Shown: piece after piece, positions 21,484-28,873 of the stretch
Position numbering within the stretch: position 1 is the stretch's first letter
Layout: each line of letters starts with the position of its first letter
DNA from: Reyranella sp.
GTDB lineage: Bacteria; Pseudomonadota; Alphaproteobacteria; Reyranellales; Reyranellaceae
Length of the DNA: 64,000 bases
Direction: 5' to 3'
NCBI GenBank assembly: GCA_021732285.1
Contig: JAKFVH010000072.1
Coordinates: 1 to 64,000, forward strand
The notes under the pieces: generated by a model
Database searches by the model: none
The model's input: only the letters and a program-made list of their open reading frames with translations
What the model was told of the DNA's origin: nothing
Program-made: the position numbers and the translations under genes

Positions 21484-24400
21484 CTACCAGGTCATGCGGA
21501 CGCCGGCGGTGAGGGCGTGCGCGCTGTCCTGCCCCGAGATGTCGCCCTCGTAACGAAGATAGATCGACGTCGCCTCGGCGATCGCGGTGTTGGCCGAGAG
21601 GCCGAGCACCACGCCGTCGCGCTGCGGCGACACGCCGAAGGTCGTGAACGGCATCGCCGGAGCGCCGGCCAGGGTGGCGGTGACGGGGCGGCCGACGTCG
21701 GCATATTCGTGGCTCCAGCCCAGGCGCAGCTGCATTAGAAGCTTCTCGCGCCAGCCGAGGTCCATCGAACCGCCGATCTGCGCGCCGATCACCGAGCGCA
21801 GCGAATTGGTCGTCTGCTGGGCGATCGAGAGGTTGAGCGATTGCGCCCCGGTCTCGGTGAAGGCGTTCTGGGTGCCGGTGTACGCCTGCAGCCTTGCGAA
21901 CGGCGTGACGAAGGCGTTGGCGTTGGTGCCGAGGTCGAAGCGGTAGCCGGTCTCGAGCTGGCCATACCACTGGTTGGCGCCGGTCTGGCCGAGGGCGGTG
22001 CGCGGCTGCAGGCCGGGGATGGTGATGTTCCGCCACATCTGGTTCCAGGTGTAGGCGTAGCCGATCAGGCCGTCGGCATAGACCTTGTCCTGGGCGAAAC
22101 TGCCATAGAGGCCGACCTGGAAGGTGTTCGAGCGGCCGAGGCCGTCGAAGCCGCCGACCCACTGGGTGCCGGTCGAGTAGCCGGTAGTGAGGCCGACACG
22201 GAAGTTGTCCGTCACCAGGCGATCGAGGCCCGCTGCGAAGCCGCCGACATTGTAGGTGACGGAGCCCACGGGCTGATTGGCGCCGATGGTGCCGAGCCCG
22301 CCCAGCGCGCCGCCCCAGGCGCCCCACTTCGGCGGCGTGGTGCTGTCGCAGGCGACATCGCAGGCTTCGGCCAGGGCCACGCGACTGCTGGCTGCAGAGC
22401 CACTGCCACCGGTCTGGTTGGCGAAGTTGTTCATGAAGAGCTGGGCGCCCTGGACCATGGAGGTCGAGAAGCCCGCGTAGTTGTTGCCCGAGATCGCCTG
22501 CAGCGTCGCCTGCGCCTGCGCATTGGTGAAGGTGTTGAAGGCCATGGCGCCCAGCACCGTGGCGAAGTCGCCGGTGGCGTTGTTGACGTTGGCGTCGAGG
22601 ACGTTGCCGACCGCGATCTGCGTCGGCGTCGTGCCGGCGGCGGCAAAGCCGCCGATCGCCAGGTTGAGATAGGCGTTGTTGGCGTCGTAGCTCAGGTTCG
22701 ACAGCAGGAAGGGATAGAGCTCGTTGACCGACGCGAAGGTGGTGCCGTTGAGGCCGCCGGTCGCGCTCAGGATGGTGTAGGTCGTCGAGGGCGCGAAGGC
22801 CATGCCGGGCAGCGCGGTCACGAACACCTGCCCGCCGAGCGTCGCCGTGCCGGCGACATTGATGCGGTCACTGAGGCCCGCGCCGCCGACCTCGGTCATG
22901 TAGGTGGCGCCCTGCGCCTGAGAGAAGTTGCCGGTGACGGTCAGCGTGCCGATCGAGTTGCCGGGCCCCACAACGCCGCTGTTGTAGAGGTTGCCGACGC
23001 TGCCGGTGCCGCCGAGCGTGGCGCCGGGCAGAACGAAAACGTTGCCGCCGAGGCTGCCGCCGACGTTGAGGCTGGCATTGCTGACGACGGTGTAGCCGTT
23101 GAAGCTGCTGCTGTTGCCCGTGAGGTTCAGCGATCCGCCGCCCTGCACGGTGAACGTGCCGTTGCCGGCGAGCGAGGAGCCCAGCGTGTTGGACTGCGCG
23201 CTGTTCAGCACCAGCAGGCCGTTGCCGTTGACATTAACCGTGCCGCCGCTGCCATTGAGCGAGCCGAGCAGCTGGGTGTTGCCGTTGAGGTTGAAGCCGC
23301 CGCCGTTGACCGTGAGCGCGCTGGCATAGGGCAGGGTGGAACCCGGGCCGAGCGACAGGCTGCCGCCGGTGACCGTCGTGCCGCCCGTATAAGTGTTGCT
23401 TCCCGTCAGCGAGATGTCGCCGCCGGCGATCGTCAGCGCGCCGGGGCCGGACACGGAGTTCCCGAGCACCACCGTGCCTGTCGACGACAGCGTGGTGTTG
23501 GCCATCAGGTAGGTGGGAATGGTCGAGCTCAAGGTCGGCAGCGTGACGTTGCCCTGCAGGGCAACAATCGGCGTGACGCTGCCGTAGCCGGAGGCGACGT
23601 TGCCCGTCCATTGATAGCCGACGAAGCCGTTGGTCGGGTCGAAGAAGTAGTTGAACCCTGCGTAGAACTGGCGGCCGGTATTGATGAAGACCGTGCTGCC
23701 CGGCACCACCTGGACGGAGTTTGGCGTCAGCGGATTGCTCGTCGAGCCGGTGGTGAAATTGTAGGTGGCGGGCTGCGGCGAGGTCTGGCCCGGCAGGAAG
23801 ATCTGCACGAGCTGGCCCGAGCTGGCGCAGCTGTCGCCGCTGCAGTTGACGGTGGCGATGTTGGCGCCGGCCGGCGGCGTCAGGAACGAGTAGGGGATGC
23901 CGCTGTCGGGCAGGATGAGGCCGCTGCCCGTGGCGCCGCCGACCGCGATGGTCATCGGCGCCTGCGTCCACGCCGCCGCCTGCTGCCCCGCGGCGGCGGC
24001 ATTGGGCGCCAGCTTCACGAAGGCGTAGTTGGCAGTGTTCGCATTGGTGAGGCCGAGATAAACCCCGTTGTTGGTGACGAGGTAGCCCTGGGCGTAGTTC
24101 GAGCTGTTCGTCGCGGTGCCGTTGACCCTCGAGATGTTGATGAAGGGATTGACATTGGTGCCTGCCGACAGCGACGGGGTGATGGCGCTCTCGCCGCGGT
24201 CGAAACCGACGCCCATGTAGGCGACGCCTGTCACGACTTGGCCGGGAGGAGTTGCCTGGCAACCCTTGTTCGTGAACCGGCAGGTCTGGGTTTGCGCCTG
24301 CAGGGCAACGACGGACGCGGAGGCTGCTACTGTGCCGCCGTTCATGATGTTGACGGTGGCCGCATAGAACTGGCCGTTCAGCTGTATGCCGCTGCTGCTG

Positions 24401-24714
24401 TAGTACTGCATGCCCGATCCGAGGGACGGCTGGCTCCCCACAGGGAAGATCTCGGAGGAGGCAATGATCCCAGTCGAGCCGGTGTCCATCGTGAACTGGG
24501 TCGTCGGCCCGCCATTCAACTGAAGGTTGATCTTGGGGGCCTGGTTCATCAGTACCCCGTTCTGCACGAAATTCATCGCCCCGTTGACGTACGGGACGTA
24601 GACGCTGCCGGCGCCGGCCGGGTACAGGTTGAACTGGGCGAGGGCGGGCTCGCTGCCGATCGGAGCGGCGAGGCACGTCGTTGCCAGCAACACGCGGCGA
24701 ATGAACTGATGCAC
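21484..24714 (-). CDS. autotransporter (type Va) with pepsin-like aspartic protease passenger
   Basis: The product is about 1076 residues from GTG 24714, which follows GGGGAG; the longer frame upstream lacks signal-peptide character. A signal peptide runs to ALAQ (27). Residues about 55-370 resemble a bilobal pepsin: FTMDTGSTG (D77), a flap-like YYSSSG (104-109), VTGVAYMGVGF (161-171), a second LILPDSG (D270) and FINTGRQFYAGFNYFFDP (343-360). Residues about 375-800 hold autotransporter beta-strand repeats (GSNTYTGGTTVTGGSLSLGP). The last 270 residues form the 12-stranded outer-membrane barrel, ending in VRMTW with a terminal aromatic. It should be exported by Sec and display or release the protease domain at the cell surface. 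Proteolytic activity is inferred from motifs. Confidence 0.82.
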   Translation of the reverse strand: MHQFIRRVLLATTCLAAPIGSEPALAQFNLYPAGAGSVYVPYVNGAMNFVQNGVLMNQAPKINLQLNGGPTTQFTMDTGSTGIIASSEIFPVGSQPSLGSGMQYYSSSGIQLNGQFYAATVNIMNGGTVAASASVVALQAQTQTCRFTNKGCQATPPGQVVTGVAYMGVGFDRGESAITPSLSAGTNVNPFINISRVNGTATNSSNYAQGYLVTNNGVYLGLTNANTANYAFVKLAPNAAAAGQQAAAWTQAPMTIAVGGATGSGLILPDSGIPYSFLTPPAGANIATVNCSGDSCASSGQLVQIFLPGQTSPQPATYNFTTGSTSNPLTPNSVQVVPGSTVFINTGRQFYAGFNYFFDPTNGFVGYQWTGNVASGYGSVTPIVALQGNVTLPTLSSTIPTYLMANTTLSSTGTVVLGNSVSGPGALTIAGGDISLTGSNTYTGGTTVTGGSLSLGPGSTLPYASALTVNGGGFNLNGNTQLLGSLNGSGGTVNVNGNGLLVLNSAQSNTLGSSLAGNGTFTVQGGGSLNLTGNSSSFNGYTVVSNASLNVGGSLGGNVFVLPGATLGGTGSVGNLYNSGVVGPGNSIGTLTVTGNFSQAQGATYMTEVGGAGLSDRINVAGTATLGGQVFVTALPGMAFAPSTTYTILSATGGLNGTTFASVNELYPFLLSNLSYDANNAYLNLAIGGFAAAGTTPTQIAVGNVLDANVNNATGDFATVLGAMAFNTFTNAQAQATLQAISGNNYAGFSTSMVQGAQLFMNNFANQTGGSGSAASSRVALAEACDVACDSTTPPKWGAWGGALGGLGTIGANQPVGSVTYNVGGFAAGLDRLVTDNFRVGLTTGYSTGTQWVGGFDGLGRSNTFQVGLYGSFAQDKVYADGLIGYAYTWNQMWRNITIPGLQPRTALGQTGANQWYGQLETGYRFDLGTNANAFVTPFARLQAYTGTQNAFTETGAQSLNLSIAQQTTNSLRSVIGAQIGGSMDLGWREKLLMQLRLGWSHEYADVGRPVTATLAGAPAMPFTTFGVSPQRDGVVLGLSANTAIAEATSIYLRYEGDISGQDSAHALTAGVRMTW

Positions 24715-24879: not shown

Positions 24880-25959
24880 TCAGCGGTGCGGCTGGCGGCG
24901 ATAGTGCTCGGCCAGGGCGTCGTGGCCGAAATCGCTGGCGAGATCGCGCCACACCGAATGGATGTGGTTGGCGCCGTTCTGGGTGTTGTCGTGCTCGATC
25001 AGGGTCGCGGGTCCGTGGACGCGGAAATAGTAGGCTTCGCCCGGCGTGAGCGAGCCCGCCCAGGCGAAGCGGAAGCGGTCGAGGCCCTGTTGCATCACGC
25101 GCTGCTTCTGGCTGGCGACGAGATCGGGCGTCAGCGTCGCCAGGAAAGTCTCCACCAGCGCCTCGACGCGCTGGCGCGAGGCGCCGTCCATGGCGCCGAG
25201 TTCCAGCCCGCGCGGCTGGCCGAGATCCTGCTCGCGCTGCGGGCTCGCCACGATCTCGCCGAACGAGCGGTTGGCGATCAGCGCCGTGCGCCGCTGTAGG
25301 TCGTTGAGGCCGGTCATGATCTGGCGCGCCAGGTCCTCGGCACTGCCGAGCAGGCGGAACCCTTTGTTGGACCCGTCGCGCACCGTCGCCGGATGAGCGC
25401 CGACGAAGAACGGCGTCACGGCGACATGGCCCGCGGCGGGCAGCGCAACGTTCAGCGACAGGTGATGGCCCTCGAAGCGCCAGCCCCAGGGAAAACGACC
25501 GGGCATGCCGAACACCGAGAGGTAGTAGCGCCCGGGATCGCGCCAGCTTCCTTGTTGCTCGCGCAAAACGCCTTCGAGCAGGCGCACGCCGTCGAGCAGC
25601 TTCAGTCCTTGCTCGTTGAGCACCGTGGCGAACAGGGCGCGCGCCGCATCGGCTTGCGCGGGGGCCATCTCGCCCAGGCTGAGGCCGGACCGGCTGCGCG
25701 GGATGTAGTGCCAGTCGACGCGATTGGCCGAGTCGAAAGCGATCAGGACCTGGCGGCGCTGGCGGTCGTCGAGCAGGGCGAGGAGACGGTTGGCCTGGTC
25801 CGCGATGCGCTGCTGGGCGTCGGCGCTCTGCGCGCTGGCGCCGCCGAATGGCAGGAAGGTCGCCGCCGCCAGCACGAGCCGCCGCGTCGGCCGCTCGTGC
25901 GCATGGTGGTGCGGGTGCCCCTTCCCGTGATCGTGCGGATGCCAGCCGTCGTGCGGCAT
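24880..25959 (-). CDS. DUF3500-family exported protein with His-rich N-terminus
   Basis: The 359-residue product has a first segment of about 24 residues unusually rich in histidine (HPHDHGKGHPHHHAH), then a Tat-like signal RPTRRLVLAAATFLPFGG with cleavage near ASAQ. The body carries the DUF3500 hallmarks SVFGMPGRFPWGWRFEGHHL and, near the end, LIEHDNTQNGANHIHSVWRD. The family has no established activity that I know; conserved His and Asp residues hint at metal binding. It starts 10 bases after the redoxin gene ends and is the third gene of a DsbD-redoxin operon, so it may depend on periplasmic redox or metal supply. That link is inference. Confidence 0.85.
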   Translation of the reverse strand: MPHDGWHPHDHGKGHPHHHAHERPTRRLVLAAATFLPFGGASAQSADAQQRIADQANRLLALLDDRQRRQVLIAFDSANRVDWHYIPRSRSGLSLGEMAPAQADAARALFATVLNEQGLKLLDGVRLLEGVLREQQGSWRDPGRYYLSVFGMPGRFPWGWRFEGHHLSLNVALPAAGHVAVTPFFVGAHPATVRDGSNKGFRLLGSAEDLARQIMTGLNDLQRRTALIANRSFGEIVASPQREQDLGQPRGLELGAMDGASRQRVEALVETFLATLTPDLVASQKQRVMQQGLDRFRFAWAGSLTPGEAYYFRVHGPATLIEHDNTQNGANHIHSVWRDLASDFGHDALAEHYRRQPHR

Positions 25960-25969
25960 GGCTAAAAGA

Positions 25970-26608
25970 TCAGGACGAGGTGCGCGGGTACTTCAGCGTG
26001 CAGCCGTAGGCGCGTGTCGAGGCCTCGGTCACCGGCTTGCCGGCCAAAACTTCGCCGAGGGCGACGCGCACATACTGCTTGGCCTTGGGAACGTCGCTGG
26101 TGCTCGACGACGGGATCGAATCGATGCCGCCCTTGTAGACCAGCACGCCGTTGGCATCGATGATGTACATGTGCGGCGTCACCGTGGCGCCGTAGGCGCG
26201 GGCGATCTTGCTCTGCGGGTCGAGCAGCACGGCGGCGGGCGCCGCGTTCCAGCTCTTGACGAGGTCGTTGGCCTGCTGGGCAGTGACATGGCCCTGCTCG
26301 CCCTTGGCCGACGACGCCGAGGTCAGCCACACCACGCCCTTGGCGGCGGCTTCGCGCTGCTGGTCCTGCATGTTCTTGGCGTTGTAGTGCTTGCGCACGT
26401 AGGGGCAGCCGTCGTTCGTCGTCTCGATCACCACGACCTTGCCCTTGAGATCGGCCAGCGACCAGGTCTTGCCGTTGCTGTCGACCGCGGTGAACAGCGG
26501 CGCGGGCTTGCCGACATCGGGACCATCGGCGAAGGCCGCGGCCGGCATCAGGGCGACGGCGGCGCTGCCCAGCAGCAGCGAACGACGGGCGACGACGAGA
26601 TTGGACAT
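25970..26608 (-). CDS. exported redoxin (AhpC/TSA/TlpA-type thioredoxin fold)
   Basis: The 212-residue product begins SNLVVARRSLLLGSAAVALM, a Tat-like signal with cleavage near AFAD, then the redoxin fold VGKPAPLFTAVDSNGKTWSL, LKGKVVVIETTNDGCPYVRK and TPHMYIIDANGVLVYKGGID. A single cysteine in NDGCPYV sits at the peroxidatic or resolving position; there is no CxxC. A periplasmic thiol peroxidase or redox carrier is likely. ATG 26608 is preceded by AGGAGG. The gene is between dsbD (21 bases upstream) and the DUF3500 gene, so DsbD may keep it reduced. Confidence 0.85.
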   Translation of the reverse strand: MSNLVVARRSLLLGSAAVALMPAAAFADGPDVGKPAPLFTAVDSNGKTWSLADLKGKVVVIETTNDGCPYVRKHYNAKNMQDQQREAAAKGVVWLTSASSAKGEQGHVTAQQANDLVKSWNAAPAAVLLDPQSKIARAYGATVTPHMYIIDANGVLVYKGGIDSIPSSSTSDVPKAKQYVRVALGEVLAGKPVTEASTRAYGCTLKYPRTSS

Positions 26609-26629
26609 GTTGCCTCCTAGCGCTTGGGC

Positions 26630-28756
26630 CTACCGCTTGGCTTGGGGTATCGTGGCCAGCTCGGACAGAATCAACGACTCGGTGAGCACCTGCGGCAGGA
26701 TCTTGGGCTGCGCGGCACCCGGGACCCAGAAAAGATAGAGCGGAACGCCGGCGCGGCCCAGTTCCTTCAACAAAGATGTGATCTCGGGATCGCGATTGGT
26801 CCAGTCGCCCTTGAGTTTCACGACTCCGGCCTGTTCAAAGCCGTTGCGCACGGCTTGCGTCTCGAGCGCCACGCGCTCGTTGACCAGGCAGGTAATGCAC
26901 CACGCCGCCGTGAAATCGACGAACACCGGTTTTCCCGCAGCGACAGCCTCGTTCATGCGCGCGCGCGAAAAGCGTTCCCAGCCGTCGAAGTTCACGCCGG
27001 CCGCCGGTCCGCCGGACGCCGACGCGGCGGTGGCCGAACCGTCTTCCAGCTTGAGCGCCGCGGCGAAGGCCAGCAGCACGGCGATGGCGGCCAGTCCTCG
27101 GCGCACCCAGGTCGCGGTCGACGCGCCGCTGCCGAGCTTCAGCAGCCAGATCGCGAAGGTGATCAGGATCATGCCGCCCAGCGCATAGATCACGCCGTCG
27201 GCGCCGGTCTGCTGGGTCAGCACCCAGATCATCCACACGGCGGAGGCGTACATCGGGAAGGCGAGGAACTGGCGCAGCCGGTCCATCCACGGACCGGGCC
27301 GCGGCATCAGGCGCTGCAGCGCGGGCGTCATCGACAGCACGAGATAAGGCAGCGCGAGACCGAGACCCAGTGCCAGCAGCACGGCCACGGTCTGCGGCGC
27401 GGGCTGGCTGAGGGCAAAGCCCAACGCCGCCGCCATGAAGGGCGCGGTGCAGGGTGTGGCCACGATCACGGCCAGCACGCCGGTGAAGAACGCGCCCGCG
27501 GTGCCGCCGCGCGCCGCCAAGCCTTGGCCCACACCGGCGAAGCGGCTGGAGAACTCGAACATGCCCGAGAGATTGAGCCCGACGACGAAAAACAGGTAGG
27601 CGATCAGGAGCGAGAACACCGGCGACTGGAACTGGAAGCCCCAGCTCACGTCGCCGACGCTGGCGCGGATGGCGATGACGATCGCGGCCATGGCGGCGAA
27701 GGACACCAGCACGCCCAGTGTGTAGGCCACGCCGTCGCGCCGCATGGCGCTCCTCTCATGGCCGGCAAGCCGCGCGAAGGCCGCGGCCTTCATGGCGAGC
27801 ACCGGGAACACGCAGGGCATCAGGTTCAGGATCAGGCCGCCCAGCAAGGCGAACAGCAGCGCTTCGACCAGCGACAGATGCTCGCCGCCGGCGGCCGCCG
27901 CCAGCGACGCGGTCGGCACGAAGGCCGGATCGAGCTTGGCCGTGACGTCGAAGGCCTGCCTCGCCTCGCCATCGGCCGTCTTCTCGGTCAGCACCAAGGT
28001 GCCTGAAAGGTCGGCGGGCAGGGCCGACTTGGCATCGCCACGCTTCAGCGGGATGCGGATGCCCTCGGCGCCGATGCTGGCCGTTTGCTTGGCCATGCTG
28101 GCGATCGGTCCCCACTCGGCCGGGAAGAAGTAGACGTCGCGGATGGTGTCGGCCTTCAGGCCCTTGGCTTCGACGATCAAGGTGGGATCGCCCGACTTGG
28201 CGACGCCATAGCGCGCCGGCCACGGGCTTTTAATCGGCAGCTGCTGGCGCGCCTTGTCGAAGATCGCGCGGGTGGCGGGCGGCGCCGGCGCGCCGGTCGC
28301 CGTCACCGGCAGGTTGAGCTCGAACTTGCCGTCCTCGGGGATGCAGACGTCCTCGCACACCAGCCAGTTGGCCTCGGCCGCAAGCTTGAAGCTGCCCGAG
28401 GCGGTGGCCGGCGGCGTGATGCGCACCAACAGGGTGGCCTCATCCTTGAAGCCGTAATTGATGATGCCGCTGAGATCGAAGAGATGCGGCCGCGGCCAGA
28501 CGATGGGATCGGCCTTGGCGCCCTCCGGCAGCTTCCATGTGATCTCCGTGGGCAGGCCCGAATCGCCCGGGTTCTTCCAGTAGGTGTGCCACTTCGGCCG
28601 GATGGTCTGGCGCAGCCCGACCCAGAACGGCTCGCCCGGCTTGATCGCCGAGGCGTCGGCCAGAAGCTCGGCGCGCACGTTCTCGGTCTGCACCACCGAT
28701 TGGGCGAAGGCAGGAACCGAGAGCAATGCCAGAAGAAGAGCGAGCAGCCGCTTCAT
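26630..28756 (-). CDS. dsbD: DsbD-family thiol:disulfide interchange protein (ScsB-like)
   Basis: The 708-residue product starts MKRLLALLLALLSVPAFAQ (signal peptide). An N-terminal periplasmic domain of about 270 residues contains a CEDVC pair (NWLVCEDVCIPEDGKF). A membrane domain of about eight segments follows, with PCVFPVLAMK and TPCTAPFM cysteines, and then a C-terminal thioredoxin domain with FTAAWCITCLVNE. It passes electrons from cytoplasmic thioredoxin across the inner membrane to periplasmic thiol proteins, here plausibly the redoxin encoded next. ATG 28756 is chosen because the signal peptide begins there; an upstream start would add eight residues. The order dsbD-redoxin-DUF3500 with short gaps looks like an operon. 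Confidence 0.92.
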   Translation of the reverse strand: MKRLLALLLALLSVPAFAQSVVQTENVRAELLADASAIKPGEPFWVGLRQTIRPKWHTYWKNPGDSGLPTEITWKLPEGAKADPIVWPRPHLFDLSGIINYGFKDEATLLVRITPPATASGSFKLAAEANWLVCEDVCIPEDGKFELNLPVTATGAPAPPATRAIFDKARQQLPIKSPWPARYGVAKSGDPTLIVEAKGLKADTIRDVYFFPAEWGPIASMAKQTASIGAEGIRIPLKRGDAKSALPADLSGTLVLTEKTADGEARQAFDVTAKLDPAFVPTASLAAAAGGEHLSLVEALLFALLGGLILNLMPCVFPVLAMKAAAFARLAGHERSAMRRDGVAYTLGVLVSFAAMAAIVIAIRASVGDVSWGFQFQSPVFSLLIAYLFFVVGLNLSGMFEFSSRFAGVGQGLAARGGTAGAFFTGVLAVIVATPCTAPFMAAALGFALSQPAPQTVAVLLALGLGLALPYLVLSMTPALQRLMPRPGPWMDRLRQFLAFPMYASAVWMIWVLTQQTGADGVIYALGGMILITFAIWLLKLGSGASTATWVRRGLAAIAVLLAFAAALKLEDGSATAASASGGPAAGVNFDGWERFSRARMNEAVAAGKPVFVDFTAAWCITCLVNERVALETQAVRNGFEQAGVVKLKGDWTNRDPEITSLLKELGRAGVPLYLFWVPGAAQPKILPQVLTESLILSELATIPQAKR

Positions 28757-28873
28757 GGGGCCTAGTAAATGACGCTCCACCTACGCCGTTGCAAGGCAAT
28801 CCGGATCACCCGCGCGTGATATTTTGCGCCGTCCGGTACACAAGTCTAAGGTCTTGGCGTCATTGGGGAAATC

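Follow-up and report, generated by a model that had tools for sequence, protein, structure and literature searches.

A predicted two-lobed aspartic protease of the PE_PGRS16/PecA kind as the passenger of a type Va autotransporter in Reyranella

Introduction

Can an autotransporter carry a two-lobed aspartic protease to the bacterial cell surface? The question is raised by a gene in the window, the whole 64,000-nucleotide stretch of Reyranella sp. DNA analysed here, which the original prediction read as an autotransporter with a bilobal, pepsin-like aspartic protease as its passenger. Bacterial two-lobed aspartic proteases are few; the first ones described were predicted to be cytoplasmic, a signal peptide is absent from all seven bacterial family A1 members reported by Rawlings and Bateman (PMC2761423), and the mycobacterial protease PecA has been described as an exception at the surface (PMC6819658). 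Our literature search, whose coverage lay mostly outside subscription journals, returned no description of a bilobal aspartic protease carried as an autotransporter passenger, the related find being rickettsial APRc. We consider it probable that the gene encodes a type Va autotransporter and that the passenger is an aspartic endopeptidase with two lobes, similar in kind to PE_PGRS16/PecA, and we infer its fold, activity, release and substrates from sequence comparison.

Gene architecture and type V features

The autotransporter assignment held. A PF03797 barrel lies at the C-terminus of the same chain, and a signal peptide and passenger precede a glycine-rich, repeat-containing stalk with weak PATR and TIGR02601 matches, as in type Va proteins (Table 1). 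The C-terminal half also matched the model of the autotransporter EprS (NF051851) at 6e-50, and the protein ends in ...AGVRMTW at position 21487. The GTG start is plausible, as had been proposed, with the putative ribosome-binding site GGGGGAG closely upstream and a signal peptide ending in ALA before Q downstream; A-x-A-Q is retained at this position in most homologues of the passenger alignment. Single-sequence searches of the whole protein against Pfam, NCBIfam and PDB returned the barrel, repeats or noise only.

Table 1 Features of the autotransporter gene, in window positions.
Feature	Residues	Positions	Strand	Remarks
Whole autotransporter gene	1,076 aa	21484..24714	minus (24714 -> 21484)	GTG start
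Signal peptide	1-26	24637..24714	minus	cleavage between ALA and Q, judged by eye
Passenger, PE_PGRS16/PecA-like two-lobed aspartic protease domain (predicted)	27-378 (~350 aa)	23581..24636	minus	PE-PGRS_C 5.3e-7; family profile vs 4EHC 1.5e-6
First catalytic motif DTGSTG	77-82	24469..24486	minus	D77, G79, G82 invariant 76/76
Flap-like YYSSSG	104-109	24388..24405	minus	Tyr105 in 70/76
First-lobe psi-loop VAYMGVGF	164-171	24202..24225	minus	hydrophobic-hydrophobic-Gly; G168, G170 invariant
Second catalytic motif DSG	270-272	23899..23907	minus	D270, G272 invariant 76/76
Second-lobe closing block NTGRQFYAGFNYFFD	345-359	23638..23682	minus	G347-to-D359 spacing 12; aligned to BACE1 VMG...VVFD
Linker and beta-strand-repeat stalk	about 379-798	22321..23580	minus	weak PATR, weak TIGR02601
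Gene-conversion tract (proposed), 268 nt	about 662-750	22464..22731	minus	identical to paralogue L040, contig C63
Autotransporter beta-barrel PF03797	799-1056	21547..22320	minus	E 9.6e-52, full 255 positions

Genes for DsbD, a redoxin and a DUF3500 protein stand in a row upstream on the same strand (window 24880-28780), and this row is kept next to the autotransporter in two close species (L042, L071). A convergent gene for a response-regulator-like protein lies on the other side.

Conserved residues and motif spacing

We compared the passenger with 76 homologues (a first alignment of 67, for which 40 loci were retrieved, and nine more from other genera), which were 20-76% identical to that of the window. 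The DTGSTG and DSG motifs of the original prediction lie 193 residues apart, and their aspartates D77 and D270 are invariant in all 76 homologues, which argues that the motifs are not there by chance. Invariant positions make up 15 of the 352 in the alignment, including D77, G79, G82, G114, G168, G170, D270, G272, N345, D359, G363 and G366. The window passenger has five aspartates, and the only invariant ones, D77, D270 and D359, are placed at the two catalytic aspartates and the final VFD of pepsin. Ser80 and Tyr105 are near-invariant, and the lobe 2 motif reads D-A-G in 13 of the 76. The flap-like YYSSSG, the VAYMGVGF segment and the C-terminal block FINTGRQFYAGFNYFFDP were also found in the protein sequence as described.

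Spacing was measured against the pepsin sequence of PDB 3PEP. The first and second aspartates are 193 residues apart (183 in pepsin), the first aspartate and the first psi-loop glycine 91 (90 in pepsin), and the second aspartate and the second psi-loop glycine 77 (87 in pepsin). From this last glycine to the final aspartate the distance is 12 in both, counted from ILG to VFD in pepsin, and it is gap-free in 76/76 homologues. Tyr105 follows D77 by 28 residues, as in the corresponding stretch of 4EHC; in pepsin the distance is 43. The hydrophobic-hydrophobic-Gly of the lobe 1 psi-loop is present (YMG168). In lobe 2, Gly347 stands at the pepsin spacing in 71/76 homologues, preceded mostly by Asn-Thr.

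Ile273 and Arg348 (each in 63/76) stand where pepsin has Thr218 and Asp303. For renin, Rawlings and Bateman connect the lack of this Thr218-Asp303 pair with near-neutral activity (PMC2761423). By analogy, the replacements lead us to predict that the pH optimum is likely to be less acidic than that of pepsin. A conserved cysteine pair, 145/152 (48 and 52 of 76, respectively), may form a disulphide; a link between this bond and the neighbouring DsbD gene is only suggestive, because the neighbourhood is common to close species alone.

Kinship with PE_PGRS16/PecA and resemblance to pepsin

A profile of the family (67 rows) matched PDB 4EHC, the aspartic-proteinase domain of PE_PGRS16, at E 4.4e-6, and a profile of 35 rows that included outgroups matched it at E 1.5e-6, in two colinear pieces carrying DTG and DSG. 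The window passenger itself matched PE-PGRS_C (PF20729) at E 5.3e-7 over domain residues 31-264, with both motifs covered; against a cut-off of 33 bits it scored 29.7 as a domain and 33.4 with its neighbours in the genome search. Many relatives match PE-PGRS_C or Asp_protease_2 in the Pfam scan. When 398 Pseudomonadota genomes were searched with PF20729, seven matched, six of which were also found by the family alignment. Two members, L087 (40 bits) and L116 (35.7 bits), lie above the PF20729 cut-off, satisfy both tests and form a bridge between the families. The C-terminal end of L087, AVAFDARNGRVGFSP, is similar to the usual A1 ending; a match of L087 to a repeat protein was set aside as repeat noise. 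With the NCBIfam model for PecA (NF038019), 5/67 members matched, the best at 5e-4, and the window passenger had no match to this or any other NCBIfam model.

Similarity to pepsin was weak. The original prediction had pointed to family A1 and DUF3443 as families to search, and neither was recovered: PF00026 (pepsin) had no match in this genome or in the Pfam scan of the protein, and DUF3443 was absent from all Pfam scans of the window protein and its relatives. Alignment of the family with hhalign to a small set comprising pepsin and endothiapepsin (both checked against PDB) and cathepsin D was non-significant (probability 1.9%, E 0.026), with DTG and the flap in register. The family profile matched BACE1 in PDB at E 0.35-1.6, aligned at the first aspartate and the closing block; we count these as one weak match, because they are many PDB copies of one protein. 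An AlphaFold2 model built from a two-row alignment had a pLDDT of 34 and bears neither for nor against the fold.

Judged by these profile matches, the closest characterised relatives are mycobacterial aspartic proteases of the PE_PGRS16/PecA group rather than pepsin; the resemblance to pepsin and BACE is only suggestive, and formal membership of peptidase family A1 is unproved. Since the domain resembles PE_PGRS16/PecA and 4EHC is a crystal structure, a pepsin-like two-lobed fold is predicted. The two-lobed aspartic protease of the original prediction thus stands by sequence, and its kinship moves from the pepsins, whose matches are marginal, to PE_PGRS16/PecA.

Distribution and forms of the family

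When 146 genomes of relatives were searched with the passenger, 45 gave a match, and 44 of these belong to the same genus. The gene is one of a genus-wide family with autotransporter and stand-alone forms and no single oddity. Among the 76 rows, 46 were counted as autotransporters, for several of which the contig ends before the barrel, and 30 are exported proteins that stand alone; within the genus these stop 9-13 residues past the domain, and one of them, L041, carries a signal peptide. Sampled relatives outside the genus are almost all stand-alone. No relatives were found in the viral contigs searched. A match in a Xanthomonas sacchari plasmid record is annotated as a hypothetical protein, and a Methylobacterium bullatum record lists no gene at the match.

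In a rapidly built tree with SH-aLRT as its sole support measure, copies of the outer genera were stand-alone and the autotransporters followed as the next layer, with the stand-alone copy found across the genus nested within them; the placement of long branches is unsure. This layering suggests that two changes suffice for the history of the forms, either one fusion and one later loss of the barrel or two fusions.

Some members depart from these forms. L081 1327-2541 (G426, same phylum, other class) is stand-alone and lipoprotein-like (LISC) and groups with the stand-alone copies of the genus, possibly by horizontal transfer. L114 1165-2731 belongs to a different family within the class, and its passenger is cut off from the barrel by a single in-frame stop, while L071 4648-7830 has passenger and barrel in different frames; the stop and the frame split would reflect decay or assembly error.

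Paralogues and proposed gene conversion

The window gene and its paralogue L040, on contig C63 of the same genome (G000), are 91% identical in the barrel and 37% in the passenger, and passengers are 31-40% identical while barrels in the same clade are about 90%. The two paralogues share an identical tract of 268 nt (window 22464-22731) with differing surroundings, and the orthologue in G054 is 72-77% identical there. This pattern points to gene conversion between paralogues on the stalk/barrel side, outside the passenger. G054 has another nearly identical barrel stretch common to two paralogues, and in G047 the passenger encoded at the DsbD-redoxin-DUF3500 locus is only about 31% identical, against 90-93% for the flanks. 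From these sequence comparisons, we read the paralogous barrels as homogenised by gene conversion while the passengers diverge.

G000 contains 16 PF03797 matches. One of these proteins (L099 150-3470, contig C20) has the same kind of barrel and a PAP2 acid-phosphatase-like passenger (E 2.5e-10); most other passengers are repeat-rich, with no recognised enzyme.

Discussion

In the mechanism that we propose, Sec would export the protein, its barrel would become part of the outer membrane, and the passenger would reach the cell surface by way of the stalk, so that the protease is probably displayed on the cell or shed from it. D77 and D270, one from each lobe, would form a single active site under the flap bearing Tyr105 and would activate one water molecule. 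Proteins would then be cleaved at the surface, or nearby if the passenger is released. By analogy with PecA, we expect self-maturation by the passenger, trimming of other proteins (foreign ones or those of the surface), or both. In favour of this reading we count that PecA shares the DTG/DSG pair and is proteolytically active, its D293G mutant being dead (PMC6819658); against it we count the lack of a PF00026 match, the mostly Asn-Thr lobe 2 psi-loop and the inactivity of PE_PGRS16 when its structure was studied, according to PMC6819658.

A rival to this role, though not to the fold, is that of an active protease for nutrition, in which the clefts would differ between paralogues and each would break down other proteins from the environment. 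The several diverged copies per genome agree with such a role, as does the PAP2 phosphatase passenger of the sister autotransporter, also suited to scavenging; the nearest studied relative, PecA, is however a specific processing protease (PMC6819658), and we regard the nutritional role as quite possible at somewhat under even odds.

It is unlikely, in our judgement, that the aspartic-protease fold is used here for adhesin- or lectin-like binding with no catalysis. Inactive A1 relatives exist, for example xylanase inhibitors, and the fast divergence of the passengers (31-40%) beside barrels at about 90% is what adhesins might show. The solved relative PE_PGRS16 was also without activity in its structural study (PMC6819658). 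However, both catalytic aspartates are kept in 76/76 homologues with their glycine neighbours and with near-invariant Ser80 and Tyr105, and this counts against binding because, without catalysis, one aspartate should have been lost in some copy of the family. An ordinary beta-helix passenger with DTG and DSG by chance would agree with Pfam matching the barrel and weak repeats alone in the whole protein, yet it is highly improbable given the invariant motifs, the stand-alone homologues that end just past the domain and the match to the solved domain 4EHC.

The predicted protease passenger can be set beside several known systems. PE_PGRS16, a surface protein whose C-terminal domain (4EHC; PF20729) is likewise two-lobed with DTGSTG, DSG and a flap tyrosine at 28, carries a PE domain, uses type VII secretion in mycobacteria and has no barrel. 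PecA (PE_PGRS35; NF038019) is a DTG/DSG aspartic protease at the surface that cleaves itself and other surface proteins; it too has a PE domain and is a type VII substrate, where the window protein has a signal peptide and a barrel instead. Family A1 (pepsin, BACE1 and bacterial shewasins; PF00026) has DTG, hydrophobic-hydrophobic-Gly, D-x-G and the final Gly-x11-Asp in the same order and at roughly the same distances, but has no significant sequence match to the window family, which has Ile273/Arg348 for Thr218/Asp303. Protease autotransporters (SPATEs, the subtilisin-type SphB1 and EprS) share the barrel, the type V route and a protease passenger; unlike the window passenger, these are serine proteases. 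Rickettsial APRc is a bacterial aspartic protease for which autotransporters have been proposed as substrates; it is of the retropepsin type and itself no autotransporter (PMC4140852), and its role is disputed in PMC10414592.

A broader reading, for which we see an even chance, is a genus-wide surface aspartic protease arsenal that would have arisen by a single fusion of a secreted aspartic protease to an autotransporter barrel, multiplied and diversified in its passengers on barrels homogenised by conversion, and given rise again to a secreted form by barrel loss. If true, type V passengers would include an aspartic-protease class for the first time. The present gene would add another catalytic class to the protease autotransporters, and the sequences lend themselves readily to expression and testing. 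With its stand-alone form exported through Sec and its autotransporter form through type V barrels, the alphaproteobacterial domain would link the related mycobacterial PE_PGRS proteases to a wider, largely unannotated secreted family.
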